DNA from: Halorhodospira halochloris
GTDB lineage: Bacteria; Pseudomonadota; Gammaproteobacteria; Nitrococcales; Halorhodospiraceae
Assembly: GCF_002356555.2 (NCBI RefSeq)
Contig: NZ_AP017372.2
Location: 1,838,501 to 1,902,500 of the forward strand
DNA: 64,000 nucleotides
Reading direction: 5' to 3'
Shown: piece by piece, positions 33,869-37,770 of the stretch
How the letters are laid out: each line of letters begins with the position of its first letter
How positions within the stretch are numbered: the first letter of the stretch is position 1
The notes under the pieces: model-generated
What the model saw: the letters and a program-made list of their open reading frames with translations, nothing else
Told to the model about the DNA's origin: nothing
Database searches by the model: none
Translations under genes and position numbers: made by a program

Positions 33869-34156
33869 ATGCACATCCAAACCCCGCAACGCGGCCCTAT
33901 TGCCCGAGTTATGGCCATAATAGGCGGCATAGCTGTCTTGGCCCTCGCTGCAACTCTTGGCATTGTGGTTCTAGCGGTGCTGCTCGGCCTGGCATTAATC
34001 GGGGCCGTGATAATCGCCGTACGCACTTGGTGGCTGCGCCATCAAATGCGTCGTCATGGCCACAGGGACAAAGGGGCTTACCGAAATAGCGGCATAACCA
34101 TAATCGAAGGCGAGTACACTAAGGAATCTCGCCGAGAACCACCTGATTCGCGTTAG
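33869..34156 (+). CDS. Small membrane protein of unknown function
   Basis: The 95-residue protein has two closely spaced hydrophobic helices (about 13-50), then a basic segment (VRTWWLRHQMRRHGHRDK) and a soluble tail. No family was recognised. It sits 63 bp upstream of the M23 peptidase and on the same strand, so it may belong to the cell-envelope cluster. Length, a clear ATG and codon usage like its neighbours suggest a real gene. Confidence 0.65.
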   Translation: MHIQTPQRGPIARVMAIIGGIAVLALAATLGIVVLAVLLGLALIGAVIIAVRTWWLRHQMRRHGHRDKGAYRNSGITIIEGEYTKESRREPPDSR

Positions 34157-34219
34157 CTAAACCAACAGCCTTATAGCTTAGTAACCGGCATGCGATTTAT
34201 TACTTAAACGGTAACCGTC

Positions 34220-35149
34220 TTGAAAGATAGGTTTACAGTAACCATAAGCGATTTCCGCGGCGCCAAGCACTATTCGCTACACCAGATAGTGAAGCGTTTC
34301 GCCTTAGCCGTCCTTTTCCTAGTACTGACGATAGTCCTTGGCGGCGCCGGCGCCATATACGGGCTAAACATGCAAATCGAAGAGCTCAATACCATACGCG
34401 CCGACAAGGCCCACCTGGCAAAACAGATCGAGCAACGCAACAACGAATTGCGCAACATCCTGAGCCAACGCGAGCAAGAGATAAACCGCATGGACTTGGA
34501 ATTGAGTCACATCGAATCGTTGGTTGGACTCGAACCAAGTCCAGAGACTGACCGCCATGAAAGGCTCGATACAGCCAGTCAGACCGCTCTGGAAAAGGCC
34601 CTGATGCTACGCACCATTCCCAACGGCTGGCCGCTCAAAGAGGAAACCCGCATAACTAGCGGCTACGGCTGGAGAAACCATCCGGTCACTGGGGAGCGTA
34701 GCTTTCATGCTGCAGTCGATATGCGTGCCCCTGTTGGTCGTAAAGTTACAGCCACGGCCGATGGGGTAGTTAATTATGCTGCCAAGCATAGGGGCAGCGG
34801 ACTGGGCAACCTAGTCATCCTCGATCACGATTTCGGCTTTCGCACCCACTACGCTCATCTGAGTGAGTTCAAGGTTGAGCAAGGAGAGTTTGTCGAAAAG
34901 GGTGAGGTAATCGCCTTAAGCGGCGCGACTGGGAACGTTAACGGACCTCATTTACACTACGAGATTTGGCATTTACAGCGCAAATTGAATCCTGAACCAT
35001 TTTTAGACTGGAGCCTAAGTAACTATGATGAGCTCTTTGAGAAAGAGGGCCGCGTAAAATGGGAATCATTGGCAAAGGGGATAAGTCAAAGGGCGCAAGT
35101 CCTGGAACGACAGTTATCAGCAATGGGACACGACTCGTCGGAGAACTGA
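34220..35149 (+). CDS. M23-family metallopeptidase with membrane anchor
   Basis: The 309-residue protein has one N-terminal membrane helix (about 28-50), a coiled coil (about 52-95) and a C-terminal LytM/M23 domain (about 140-270). The zinc ligands lie in RSFHAAVDMRAP and in HLHYE. It cuts peptidoglycan crosslinks from the periplasmic side. The start is a TTG; the next ATG falls after the membrane helix. Bactofilins are often encoded beside such peptidases, and here the bactofilin start lies 91 bp before this gene's stop. Confidence 0.88.
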   Translation: MKDRFTVTISDFRGAKHYSLHQIVKRFALAVLFLVLTIVLGGAGAIYGLNMQIEELNTIRADKAHLAKQIEQRNNELRNILSQREQEINRMDLELSHIESLVGLEPSPETDRHERLDTASQTALEKALMLRTIPNGWPLKEETRITSGYGWRNHPVTGERSFHAAVDMRAPVGRKVTATADGVVNYAAKHRGSGLGNLVILDHDFGFRTHYAHLSEFKVEQGEFVEKGEVIALSGATGNVNGPHLHYEIWHLQRKLNPEPFLDWSLSNYDELFEKEGRVKWESLAKGISQRAQVLERQLSAMGHDSSEN

Positions 35150-35700
35150 CCCTTGAATCAAACCTCCATGTGGATGGCCAAATCAAGGGGACAATAATCT
35201 CCGATCACGATGTGTCCATTGGCAGATCGGGGCGTTTCGAGGGCAACCTCAAGGCTGAGAGGCTATTGGTCAGTGGCTTCGTTGAGGGGGTAATAGACTG
35301 CGCCGTTATGGAAATAGTCGCTGAAGGACGCGTCTTTGGCGAACTGCATAGTGACGACTTCGTTATTGAACCGGGCGGACACTTCCTCGGCGAGAGCCAC
35401 CCTAGGCGTGAAGTGCCCCTGGCGGAGTTAAGCTACGAGCGTAACCACGAGCCCCAATTATCCAGCCCAGAACAGCATTCCGATCAGCAAGATAGCCTTC
35501 AAGGTCGAGATCCTGCAGATCATCAGCAGGCCTCCCCTGGCTTCGAGAGCGCAGGTCGAGCAAGCGGCGTTGGCAGTAGTGGAAAAGCAGACGCCGAAGA
35601 TGGCAGCTCTACGAGTCATGATGGCGGTGAGGAGAGCAGCGCTGATGATGCCCAGACAGTGCACCGAGAGCCACGACGCACAACATGGGGGCGCAGATAA
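35059..35700 (+). CDS. Bactofilin (polymer-forming cytoskeletal protein)
   Basis: The 213-residue protein has a short N-terminal tail and a bactofilin beta-helix (about 22-130; VISNGTRLVGELTL, LHVDGQIKGTI, GRFEGNLKAERLLVSGFVEG). A long low-complexity tail, acidic and rich in Ser, Gln and Asp, follows. Bactofilins form stable filaments that guide peptidoglycan enzymes. The first 91 bp overlap the M23 gene in another frame. The overlap is credible because the N-terminus up to the beta-helix matches the family and a later start would cut it. Confidence 0.87.
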   Translation: MGIIGKGDKSKGASPGTTVISNGTRLVGELTLESNLHVDGQIKGTIISDHDVSIGRSGRFEGNLKAERLLVSGFVEGVIDCAVMEIVAEGRVFGELHSDDFVIEPGGHFLGESHPRREVPLAELSYERNHEPQLSSPEQHSDQQDSLQGRDPADHQQASPGFESAGRASGVGSSGKADAEDGSSTSHDGGEESSADDAQTVHREPRRTTWGRR

Positions 35701-35862
35701 TGGATAGATGCCAGTAAATCACAGTTTTTTCACTATTAACCCTTGCGCTATAACCATAAATTAAGGTAAACAGGTGGGAAGTGGGAATTTGGCAGATCAC
35801 ATCTGGAAATTTCAGTACCTAAACGGCTAACCAGCACTGAACATAGTATAAGGAGGCAGATC

Positions 35863-37014
35863 GTGGAACGTTGTATTGGCCTCGACATGGGTTACGGTTT
35901 TATTAAGATCGACGACGGTCGTGAGGGACATATATTCCCCAGCGTCGTTGGCGAGGGCGACTCGGGGATGCCGATGTCCCTCGGGATGGCTCAACGCAGC
36001 GGCAGCAATGAGCTGCGCATATCCTACAACGGTCGCAGTTACCTGCTAGGAGATCACGCTATACGCCACTCGCGTCTAGCTCACCGCGGCCTCTCGCCAA
36101 CACGGGCCGAGGGAGACGATCTGAAGATCCTCTTTCTTGGCTCGCTCAGCCTCTATGCTCGCGAGACCATAAATAACTTCTATGTGGTTACCGGTCTGCC
36201 GCCGGGGCGCATGCATATGGCTGACGACTTGGTGCGACAGCTGCGTGGCGACCACGAGATAGTTCGTTATTCCGGCGCTAGCCGCTTTGGAATCAGCATG
36301 CGTATAGAGCGCATAGAAGTGGTCCCGCAGCCGGTAGGCACCTACTGGGCCGAAGTCCTTGACGAGCGCGGTCAGATTCGTCCGGACCACCCTCTTCTTC
36401 AAGGACGGGTTGGGATAATTGATGTCGGCTTCCGTACCAGCGACTTTGCAACCGTTATTGATGGCGACTACTCACCTGGATTCTGCCGAACAGTACCGCT
36501 GGGGATATCCTTCGGTTACGAGGAGATTGCCCATGAACTTGCGACCCAGTATGGCCTGGAGAGAGAACAGTACGCCCTTGATGAGGCCGTGATAAGCGGC
36601 CAGGTTAATGTCTCCGGTCGGCCTGTAGACATTACCGATTTGCGGGATCGTATCTTCGGTGATATCGGGACTAAGCTGTTGGTCGAAGTAAGATCTCTAT
36701 GGCAGATACAGGACTTTGACCACATTATCATCACCGGCGGTGGCGGTAGGGTGCTCGAGCGTTATATGCGCCCGGAACTACCCCAATCCTACTTGGCCAA
36801 CGACTCTTTAACCGCCAATGCGCGCGGCTACTACGCTTGGGCTTACTTCAATTCGCAACAGCAAGCAGTTGAAAGCCAGGGACGCGGAGATGGTCAGCTG
36901 GAGGCTTATGCGAGCAACTCTGACAATCAACGAGATGAGTTGCCAGCTGACGATGAAGAGTCCCAAGCCATGGCCCAGGATCCCTACTCAGGGCGAAGGG
37001 CTACAGGCAGATAG
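35863..37014 (+). CDS. ParM/StbA-like actin ATPase, chromosomal
   Basis: The 383-residue actin-fold protein starts with GTG after a strong AAGGAGG. It shows phosphate-1 (GLDMGYGFIKI), phosphate-2 (GIIDVGFRTSDFA) and adenosine (IIITGGGGRVLE) motifs, as in ParM/Alp7A-type plasmid-segregating actins and their relatives. A disordered acidic tail (about 335-383) follows. No ParR-like adaptor or centromere repeats were seen next to it, so plasmid partition is unlikely here. It lies between bactofilin (162 bp) and phasin. A role in organising cell shape or granules is inferred. Confidence 0.85.
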   Translation: MERCIGLDMGYGFIKIDDGREGHIFPSVVGEGDSGMPMSLGMAQRSGSNELRISYNGRSYLLGDHAIRHSRLAHRGLSPTRAEGDDLKILFLGSLSLYARETINNFYVVTGLPPGRMHMADDLVRQLRGDHEIVRYSGASRFGISMRIERIEVVPQPVGTYWAEVLDERGQIRPDHPLLQGRVGIIDVGFRTSDFATVIDGDYSPGFCRTVPLGISFGYEEIAHELATQYGLEREQYALDEAVISGQVNVSGRPVDITDLRDRIFGDIGTKLLVEVRSLWQIQDFDHIIITGGGGRVLERYMRPELPQSYLANDSLTANARGYYAWAYFNSQQQAVESQGRGDGQLEAYASNSDNQRDELPADDEESQAMAQDPYSGRRATGR

Positions 37015-37043
37015 ACTCGCATGTGATCCGCAATGATCCAGCA

Positions 37044-37083
37044 GCCGCCTGCGTCATAAAGATGGCATTTTGACGCAGGCGGC
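37044..37083. other. Perfect 13-bp inverted repeat after the actin-like gene
   Basis: GCCGCCTGCGTCA (37044-37056) pairs perfectly with TGACGCAGGCGGC (37071-37083) across a 14-nt loop. No T-tract follows on the plus strand. It could be a terminator without a T-run or a regulatory site. Its inner TGCGTCATAA is repeated at 37211 in the phasin upstream region. Confidence 0.65.
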
Positions 37084-37203
37084 CTCACCCGCCTCTGGTC
37101 GTATTTCCTCTCCAACTTTATTACTCGCCGATATAACAATAACTTATCAAAGTTATCCGGGCAGCTATTGGGTTACAGCAAAATCACCAAGAAACATGCT
37201 GGT

Positions 37204-37240
37204 GTTGCATTGCGTCATAAGCAGTGTTACGTTGCACTGC
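37204..37240 (+). promoter_or_regulatory. GTTGCAYTGC direct repeats upstream of the phasin gene
   Basis: GTTGCATTGC (37204-37213) and GTTGCACTGC (37231-37240) recur 27 bp apart, about 50-85 bp upstream of the phasin start. TGC-rich repeats like these are known as binding sites of PhaR, the repressor of phasin genes. Assignment to PhaR is by analogy only; no phaR gene is in the window. Confidence 0.4.
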
Positions 37241-37287
37241 ACAAACAGACAATTCTCTTCACCGCAAGAGCTGAGAGGTAGTAAGTG

Positions 37288-37770
37288 ATGCAAGACCAGA
37301 TCAATAAATCGATGCAACAGATGCAAAAGTTCATGGAACCCACCCGGAAGATGAGCAACTTGATGATCGACCACGCCGAGAAGGTTGCCCATCTCAACTT
37401 GGAAGCGGCTCGCGAGTACTCCAGGCTGGCAATGGAACAGATGCGCAGCGCCATGAACGTGCGCGACCCAGAGAGCATGCAGGAGTATCTGAACAGTCAG
37501 AATAAAGTTATGCAGACCGTCAGCAGCAAGCTCTCAGAGGACGCCACGGCACTGGCCGATATAAGCAAAAACATGGGCGAAGAGGTACAAAAGCTGGCCC
37601 AGGAAAACGTCTCTTTCATTACCGAAAGCGTTGAAAGCGTTGCTGAGCAGCAAAAGCCGGCTCAGACGGAGAAGGCCAAGAGCAGTCGCAGCACCAGCGG
37701 TTCAGCTGCCAGCTCGACGGGCTCCGCTACCAGCGGCTCCAGCAGCAGCGCCACCAAGAAGTCAGCTTAA
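37288..37770 (+). CDS. Phasin family protein (PHA granule-associated)
   Basis: The 160-residue protein has an amphipathic helical core (about 1-110, with MEPTRKMSNLMIDHAEKVAHLNLEAAREY) of the phasin PF09361 type. A Ser/Lys/Ala-rich tail (about 125-160) resembles the basic tails that bind nucleoid DNA in some phasins. It coats polyhydroxyalkanoate granules. The ATG at 37288 is nine bases after GAGAGG; a GTG one codon earlier is an alternative. The polymerase genes are not in the window. Confidence 0.85.
   Translation: MQDQINKSMQQMQKFMEPTRKMSNLMIDHAEKVAHLNLEAAREYSRLAMEQMRSAMNVRDPESMQEYLNSQNKVMQTVSSKLSEDATALADISKNMGEEVQKLAQENVSFITESVESVAEQQKPAQTEKAKSSRSTSGSAASSTGSATSGSSSSATKKSA

Follow-up and report, generated by a model that had tools for sequence, protein, structure and literature searches.

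What does a ParM-like actin do on the chromosome of Halorhodospira halochloris, one of the salt-loving purple bacteria, next to genes for an M23 peptidase and a bactofilin? The question is raised by a stretch of 64,000 nucleotides (contig NZ_AP017372.2, positions 1,838,501 to 1,902,500; hereafter the window), which lies within a single-contig chromosome of 2,834,560 bases. A preliminary description of the window had claimed a cytoskeletal cluster of five genes, encoding a 95-residue membrane protein (here TM95), an M23 peptidase, a bactofilin, an actin-like protein (ALP) and a phasin. All five open reading frames were found in place, and the Pfam families agree, with none for the 95-residue protein (Table 1). 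Our best explanation, to which we assign a probability of roughly one half, places ALP in the service of the cell envelope. On this reading a chromosomal actin of the ParM lineage, with no recognisable DNA partners, would act in Halorhodospira side by side with a peptidase and a bactofilin of the published LmdC-BacA kind. The unusual part is the actin joined to a wall-remodelling pair; the peptidase-bactofilin pair itself is of a known kind. Throughout, trio denotes the M23 peptidase, the bactofilin and ALP; f1 is the window's family, and f2, f3 and f171 are other families.

Sequence and synteny give good grounds to regard ALP as a chromosomal actin of the ParM lineage with an intact nucleotide site and no recognisable adjacent DNA partners, a ParR being hard to recognise. 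Its ALP_N domain scored 112.4 bits (cut-off 26.3) and its actin-like C-terminal domain 51.3 bits (cut-off 27.8), and the ParM model NF010498 matched at 1.8e-21, under its curated cut-off. Residues D8, G10, K15, D187, G189, T192 and G292-G294 were invariant in all 26 aligned sequences; they correspond to the actin-type nucleotide-binding motifs. The predicted structure had a mean predicted local distance difference test score (pLDDT) of 79.4, with a tail that is probably disordered from residue 344. Its best fold match was Dh-cParM1 (PDB 8x1i; Z 34.9, root-mean-square deviation (rmsd) 3.6, 336 residues aligned), also the best match by sequence, followed by CorM of Anabaena (PDB 9rmi; Z 32.3, rmsd 3.4, 309 aligned), archaeal Ta0583 (Z 31.3) and Alp7A (Z 30.4). 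MamK (Z 26.1), MreB (Z about 24 to 25) and Hsp70 ranked lower. The window genome encodes MreB proper separately, at 2.64 Mb, and holds a single bactofilin match and a single ALP_N match genome-wide.

Close relatives of ALP, meaning about 58% identity or more, were found in 23 genomes: 10 of the 12 f1 genomes, 8 of the 14 f3 genomes, two genomes of f171 and another three records. A class-level draw of 369 genomes contained two, the window's own aside. Identity to the window protein was 88% in H. abdelmalekii and 84% in H. neutriphila. Among up to eight genes compared, ALP had the top identity in eight of nine relatives and came second in the remaining one, 0.3 points behind, as judged from best-segment identities that often leave out the ALP tail. 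The gene lies on a contig of 1.5 to 4 Mb, and hence on a chromosome, in 7 of the 23 genomes (window counted), the other contigs being too short to tell. The window's own copy is not plasmid-borne, as it sits on the 2.83 Mb single contig. All 1,441 matching plasmid records were less than 60% identical to it (the best 12 of the 1,441 at 26-27%), and phage relatives were 26-28% identical among the matches listed (8 of 43 records). Distant relatives at 31-33% identity (L067-L069) had no bactofilin by hidden Markov model (HMM) search, their neighbours being judged by eye from translations, and the other distant matches (L034, L035, L041-L057) had none in their short flanks. One f3 genome, G017, holds a second, distant ALP-type actin (L073, G017:C3), with one in-frame TGA flagged in the match.

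A protein of this lineage could be a chromosomal DNA-segregation actin whose ParR has gone unrecognised, perhaps held by the bactofilin much as the BacNOP bactofilins scaffold the ParABS chromosome segregation proteins in Myxococcus (PMC5703909). The ParM ancestry of ALP favours this, as does the report that other chromosomal ParMs, most of them with ParR candidates nearby, make filaments where assayed (PMC12270681). Dh-cParM1, from the same report, resembles ALP in being chromosomal and conserved among relatives and differs in having an adjacent ParR candidate; the main text of that paper does not contain the word bactofilin. The Myxococcus system likewise ties a bactofilin to a Par-type partition ATPase, but ParA is a Walker-type ATPase (PMC12270681) and not an actin, and what the BacNOP proteins hold are chromosome segregation proteins. 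Around ALP itself, bactofilin aside, no neighbour recurs across families (greB does so just within f3), nor does any small neighbouring gene, and two minus-strand reading frames of 83 and 108 residues that overlap ALP or the ALP-phasin gap matched no Pfam family. The preliminary description had noted that neither ParR nor centromere repeats accompany the actin. No ParR gene was recognised beside ALP, in a comparison that included no whole-genome search with ParR models. Six genomes (the window's and five others) were inspected for centromere repeats, and the stretches covered near ALP contained just two-copy repeats of 10-14 nt and no parC-type iteron array. The sequence of ParR is poorly conserved, so its absence is unproven. 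On balance we consider a role in DNA segregation improbable.

Upstream of ALP lie the other two genes of the trio. LmdC is a bitopic M23 endopeptidase whose cytoplasmic tail binds the bactofilin BacA, with a beta-hairpin required for recruitment, and the LmdC-BacA pair modulates the curvature of spiral Rhodospirillum rubrum cells (PMC10945521). There is a strong case from sequence that the M23 peptidase and bactofilin of the window form a shape module of this type. As in Hyphomonas neptunium and R. rubrum (PMC10945521), the two genes overlap. The peptidase gene starts with TTG and shares 91 nt with the bactofilin gene, and the identical overlap was found in 9 of the 10 trio-bearing genomes of the family (window counted). 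The predicted protein also has the published arrangement of a short cytoplasmic tail, a transmembrane/coiled-coil helix and an M23 domain, and a hairpin is predicted in the tail. In the model, strands at residues 6-11 and 14-19 are followed by a helix at 20-101 and then the M23 domain; confidence is low (mean pLDDT 64, and only 52-58 for the hairpin), and the order of elements is clear. The zinc ligands H163, D167, H244 and H246 and a motif T(I/V)(T/S)D(F/Y)RG near the N-terminus were invariant in all 19 sequences aligned of the 24 collected. The hosts, too, include spiral-cell bacteria, the Ectothiorhodospiraceae and Halorhodospiraceae being described as spiral-, vibrioid- or rod-shaped (PMC8877833). 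The pair of the window may already be listed among the bactofilin-M23 pairs of 226 species in PMC10945521. Two features set the present case apart from the published module: the next gene after the bactofilin encodes a ParM-lineage actin, and in f3 the bactofilin adjoins the actin while the peptidase gene lies elsewhere.

In a phylogenetic tree the window bactofilin clustered with bactofilins that are linked to M23 genes in related families, and a group of unlinked paralogues stood separately; the division into BacA-type and paralogue was taken from this single tree, in which several inner nodes are weak. In f3, where the full-length peptidase gene occupies a locus separate from the bactofilin, both full-length LmdC and a BacA-type bactofilin were present in 7 of the 14 genomes and both were missing from the other 7 (Fisher 6e-4, uncorrected for kinship). 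G015 was counted among the latter, as its sole bactofilin match is partial, below the cut-off and on a long branch. This co-occurrence of two unlinked genes is, as far as sequence comparison goes, the functional link with the best support. Two side observations concern the peptidase: H. abdelmalekii (G020) has a second full-length LmdC-like peptidase (L149:3673-4770), unlinked to a bactofilin and 55% identical to the window's, and G053 has two tandem bactofilins after an M23 peptidase (L140:5239-6155), with a weak TM95-like match just 3' of them.

How tightly, then, does ALP go with this pair? In 16 of the 23 ALP genomes a bactofilin gene precedes ALP on the same strand and ends 90-205 nt before it; this arrangement occurred in three settings: M23-bactofilin-ALP-phasin (10 genomes), mutM-bactofilin-ALP (5 genomes, with greB next in three) and acsA-bactofilin-ALP (one genome, G420). 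In the mutM setting, which is that of f3, the bactofilin adjoins ALP although the peptidase gene sits elsewhere. Full-length LmdC was present in 15 of the 16 genomes with an adjacent bactofilin vs. none of the 7 without (kinship uncorrected), and some type of bactofilin was present in all 23. The four-gene order recurred in all 10 ALP-bearing genomes of f1, G021 among them with its trio, which argues that the order is not a matter of chance. The remaining two f1 genomes, G026 and G027, keep the series kinase-TM95-phasin-purD-purH with a gap of about 0.3 kb at the site of the trio, and neither ALP nor bactofilin nor full-length LmdC was found in the remainder of either assembly. In a tree of purD, purH and the kinase (the kinase missing for 6 of the 15 genomes, purD/purH for one) they were nested inside ALP-bearing lineages, with support of 0.88 at the node where they meet the H. 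halophila group, so that loss of the trio as a block is the simplest reading. The cytoskeletal grouping advanced in the preliminary description gains from this joint absence and from the bactofilin-ALP neighbourhood in three settings. A wider survey of the neighbourhood, which that description had called for, upheld the bactofilin directly upstream of ALP (16/23) and not the phasin, which was near ALP in none of the 12 testable genomes outside f1; the actin does occur in part in unrelated contexts, 7 of the 23 genomes having no adjacent bactofilin.

A number of findings weigh against a working partnership. The two assemblies without the trio are 83% (G026) and 77% (G027) complete, the junction being contiguous in both. 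In the acsA setting the bactofilin beside ALP falls outside the BacA clade and full-length LmdC is missing, so only two settings clearly contain the same bactofilin-ALP pair. Of the 36 genomes of the order that have no ALP of this clade, 20 had a bactofilin; 7 of the 23 ALP genomes had neither BacA nor full-length LmdC; and the LmdC-BacA pair occurred without ALP in G001-G004 (f2), G010 and G016 (f3), G052 and G053. The trio peptidase of H. abdelmalekii has an in-frame TGA. At the mutM locus of f3, ALP and bactofilin were both present in G005, G007, G008, G009 and G011, ALP only in G006, G017 and G018, bactofilin only in G010 and G016, and neither in G012-G015; with 5 genomes having both, 3 ALP only, 2 BacA only and 4 neither, the two genes were unassociated (Fisher p = 0.59). 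ALP may also be a transcription unit of its own. An element TGTGCTAGCAT, which has the look of an extended -10 promoter for the actin gene, was found upstream of ALP within one mismatch in 11 of the 23 genomes, the window not among them (0 of 300 shuffles in each). It hints that the actin gene can be transcribed independently; a terminator-like hairpin follows ALP in 10 of the 23. The element (L064 and L012, upstream of ALP) occurs without mismatch in several genomes of f1 and in G017 and G018 of f3, despite differing upstream genes.

ALP could instead be an independent chromosomal actin with a separate job and a chance neighbour of LmdC-BacA, the synteny stemming from a few old rearrangements and vertical descent. 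In favour of this are the separate variation of ALP and BacA/LmdC in f3, the possible promoter and terminator of ALP's own and the 7 of 23 ALP genomes with no bactofilin adjacent. The ALP contexts of G327/G411 and G421/G422, where neither bactofilin nor LmdC was found, favour the same explanation. It accounts poorly for the bactofilin as neighbour in two clearly different BacA-type settings and, in divergent form, in a third, for the joint absence of the trio from G026 and G027, and for the distribution of full-length LmdC between genomes with and without an adjacent bactofilin. We regard an independent actin as unlikely, though deserving serious weight. As a separate observation, G327/G411 have a gene for an APH-family kinase at a distance of about 4-7 kb from ALP (L065:3669-4625, L066:15926-16900), 48-49% identical to that of the window.

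The preliminary description had further proposed that the actin and bactofilin position or divide storage granules through the phasin. The phasin is indeed the next gene downstream of ALP in all 10 f1 genomes that carry the actin, at a distance of 122-534 nt. It stays beside purD in G026 and G027, however, where the trio is missing, and it was found near ALP in none of the 12 testable genomes outside f1: there was no Phasin_2 match near ALP in the 8 f3 genomes, and an HMM of the local phasin found nothing in the 13-17 kb around ALP in G327, G411, G421 and G422 (the contig of G420 stops just after ALP). The phasin gene also has a conserved promoter-like block of its own, TGTTGC followed by TGnTAnGnTGCA and GCAC, which could be aligned in all 12 f1 genomes, those two that lack the trio among them. 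This TGTTGC/TGCA block may be an operator of a polyhydroxyalkanoate regulator. Terminator-like hairpins with a T-run separate ALP from the phasin in 7 of the 10 trio-bearing f1 genomes; none was found after ALP in G020 and G023, and the hairpin of the window lacks a T-run. On synteny, the promoter-like block and the hairpins we reject the link between the trio and storage granules, and we give the granule proposal next to no credence; judged by sequence, the phasin looks like a bystander of the trio. In G053, which has no ALP, a phasin gene lies 1.5 kb from purD. TM95 was rejected as a member of the module in the same way: it is retained with the phasin where the trio is missing, so both are flanks.

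We return to the explanation that ALP serves the envelope, for which synteny, joint absence and a precedent from cyanobacteria are the grounds. By analogy to the published system, a bactofilin polymer at the inner membrane would recruit the bitopic peptidase through the cytoplasmic hairpin of the latter, and local cleavage of peptidoglycan by the peptidase would alter the curvature of the envelope. A filament of ALP would then place, dynamically extend or bound the zone of bactofilin and wall remodelling. ALP need not strictly depend on this BacA and may have another bactofilin or envelope partner in lineages without BacA and LmdC. The precedent is FcmB, a ParM-lineage actin needed for rod shape in Nostoc (PMC12645912). 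Like ALP, the FcmB of the FcmB/FcmC system of filamentous cyanobacteria is chromosomal and of ParM lineage; FcmB has a non-plasmid role. FcmB adjoins the ParR-annotated fcmC (PMC12645912), whereas ALP has no recognisable partner of that sort and mostly a bactofilin instead, and ALP reaches 42.2 bits on the FcmB model NF052678, for which the curated cut-off is 300 bits.

A broader proposal would be that halophilic Gammaproteobacteria independently recruited a plasmid-segregation actin into a wall-remodelling machine with a bactofilin scaffold and an LmdC-type endopeptidase, without a recognisable ParR and separately from cyanobacterial FcmB/CorM; we put this forward tentatively, at somewhat short of even odds. 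Among the papers listed by literature searches, none was seen to describe a gene pair of bactofilin and ParM-type actin. Should ALP indeed work with LmdC-BacA, cell morphogenesis would have taken over plasmid-segregation actins on at least two occasions, and there would be a link between a bactofilin and an actin filament. Genomes of every kind (trio, ALP only, pair only, none) exist in nature and provide ready comparisons.

Table 1. Features of the ALP locus, in positions of the window.
Feature	Position	Strand	Basis
TM95, 95-residue membrane protein, flanking gene	33869..34156	+	no Pfam family above cut-off; retained where the trio is missing (G026, G027)
LmdC-like M23 peptidase: cytoplasmic N-terminal hairpin, transmembrane/coiled-coil helix, M23 domain	34220..35149	+	PF01551 2.2e-30
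Predicted beta-hairpin at the peptidase N-terminus (residues 6-19), which probably corresponds to the element of LmdC that binds bactofilin	34235..34276	+	conserved motif, prediction, analogy to PMC10945521
BacA-type bactofilin, N-terminus MGIIGK	35059..35700	+	PF04519 6.4e-22
ALP, chromosomal ParM-lineage actin-like protein	35863..37014	+	PF17989 (ALP_N) 2.9e-32, PF21522 (MreB-like_C) 2.3e-13
C-terminal tail of ALP, residues 344-383, probably disordered	36892..37011	+	pLDDT <50; unconserved
Hairpin in the ALP-phasin gap, 16-nt arms, 94% complementary	37044..37083	.	no T-run; absent from the lists of both terminator scans
Promoter-like block of the phasin, conserved	37203..37244	+	alignable in 12/12 family genomes, two without the trio among them
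Phasin, neighbour outside the module	37285..37770	+	PF09361 (Phasin_2) 4.2e-16; kept with purD in G026 and G027

The probable start codon of the phasin is the ATG at 37288, not the GTG at 37285. General scans of the window stretch for promoters and terminators stayed at chance, with 4 promoter-like sites vs. 3.2 in shuffles and one terminator-like site, on the minus strand, vs. 4.2 in shuffles. Neighbouring genes were called by a codon-position GC score, which miscalled the bactofilin of L004, the purD of L005 and mutM in several f3 loci and gave no ALP call at L058, L068 and L069; the counts reported here are therefore based on tblastn and HMM searches. The names mutM, greB, acsA and fbp are backed by Pfam, and gmk, yncE, the HD-GYP gene and ABC/gldG/DUF4340 were assigned by eye. 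Unlike in the window, the Fur-type gene upstream of the cluster in H. abdelmalekii (L003:2321-2746) runs in the opposite direction, and that locus had no match to the cation-efflux gene.

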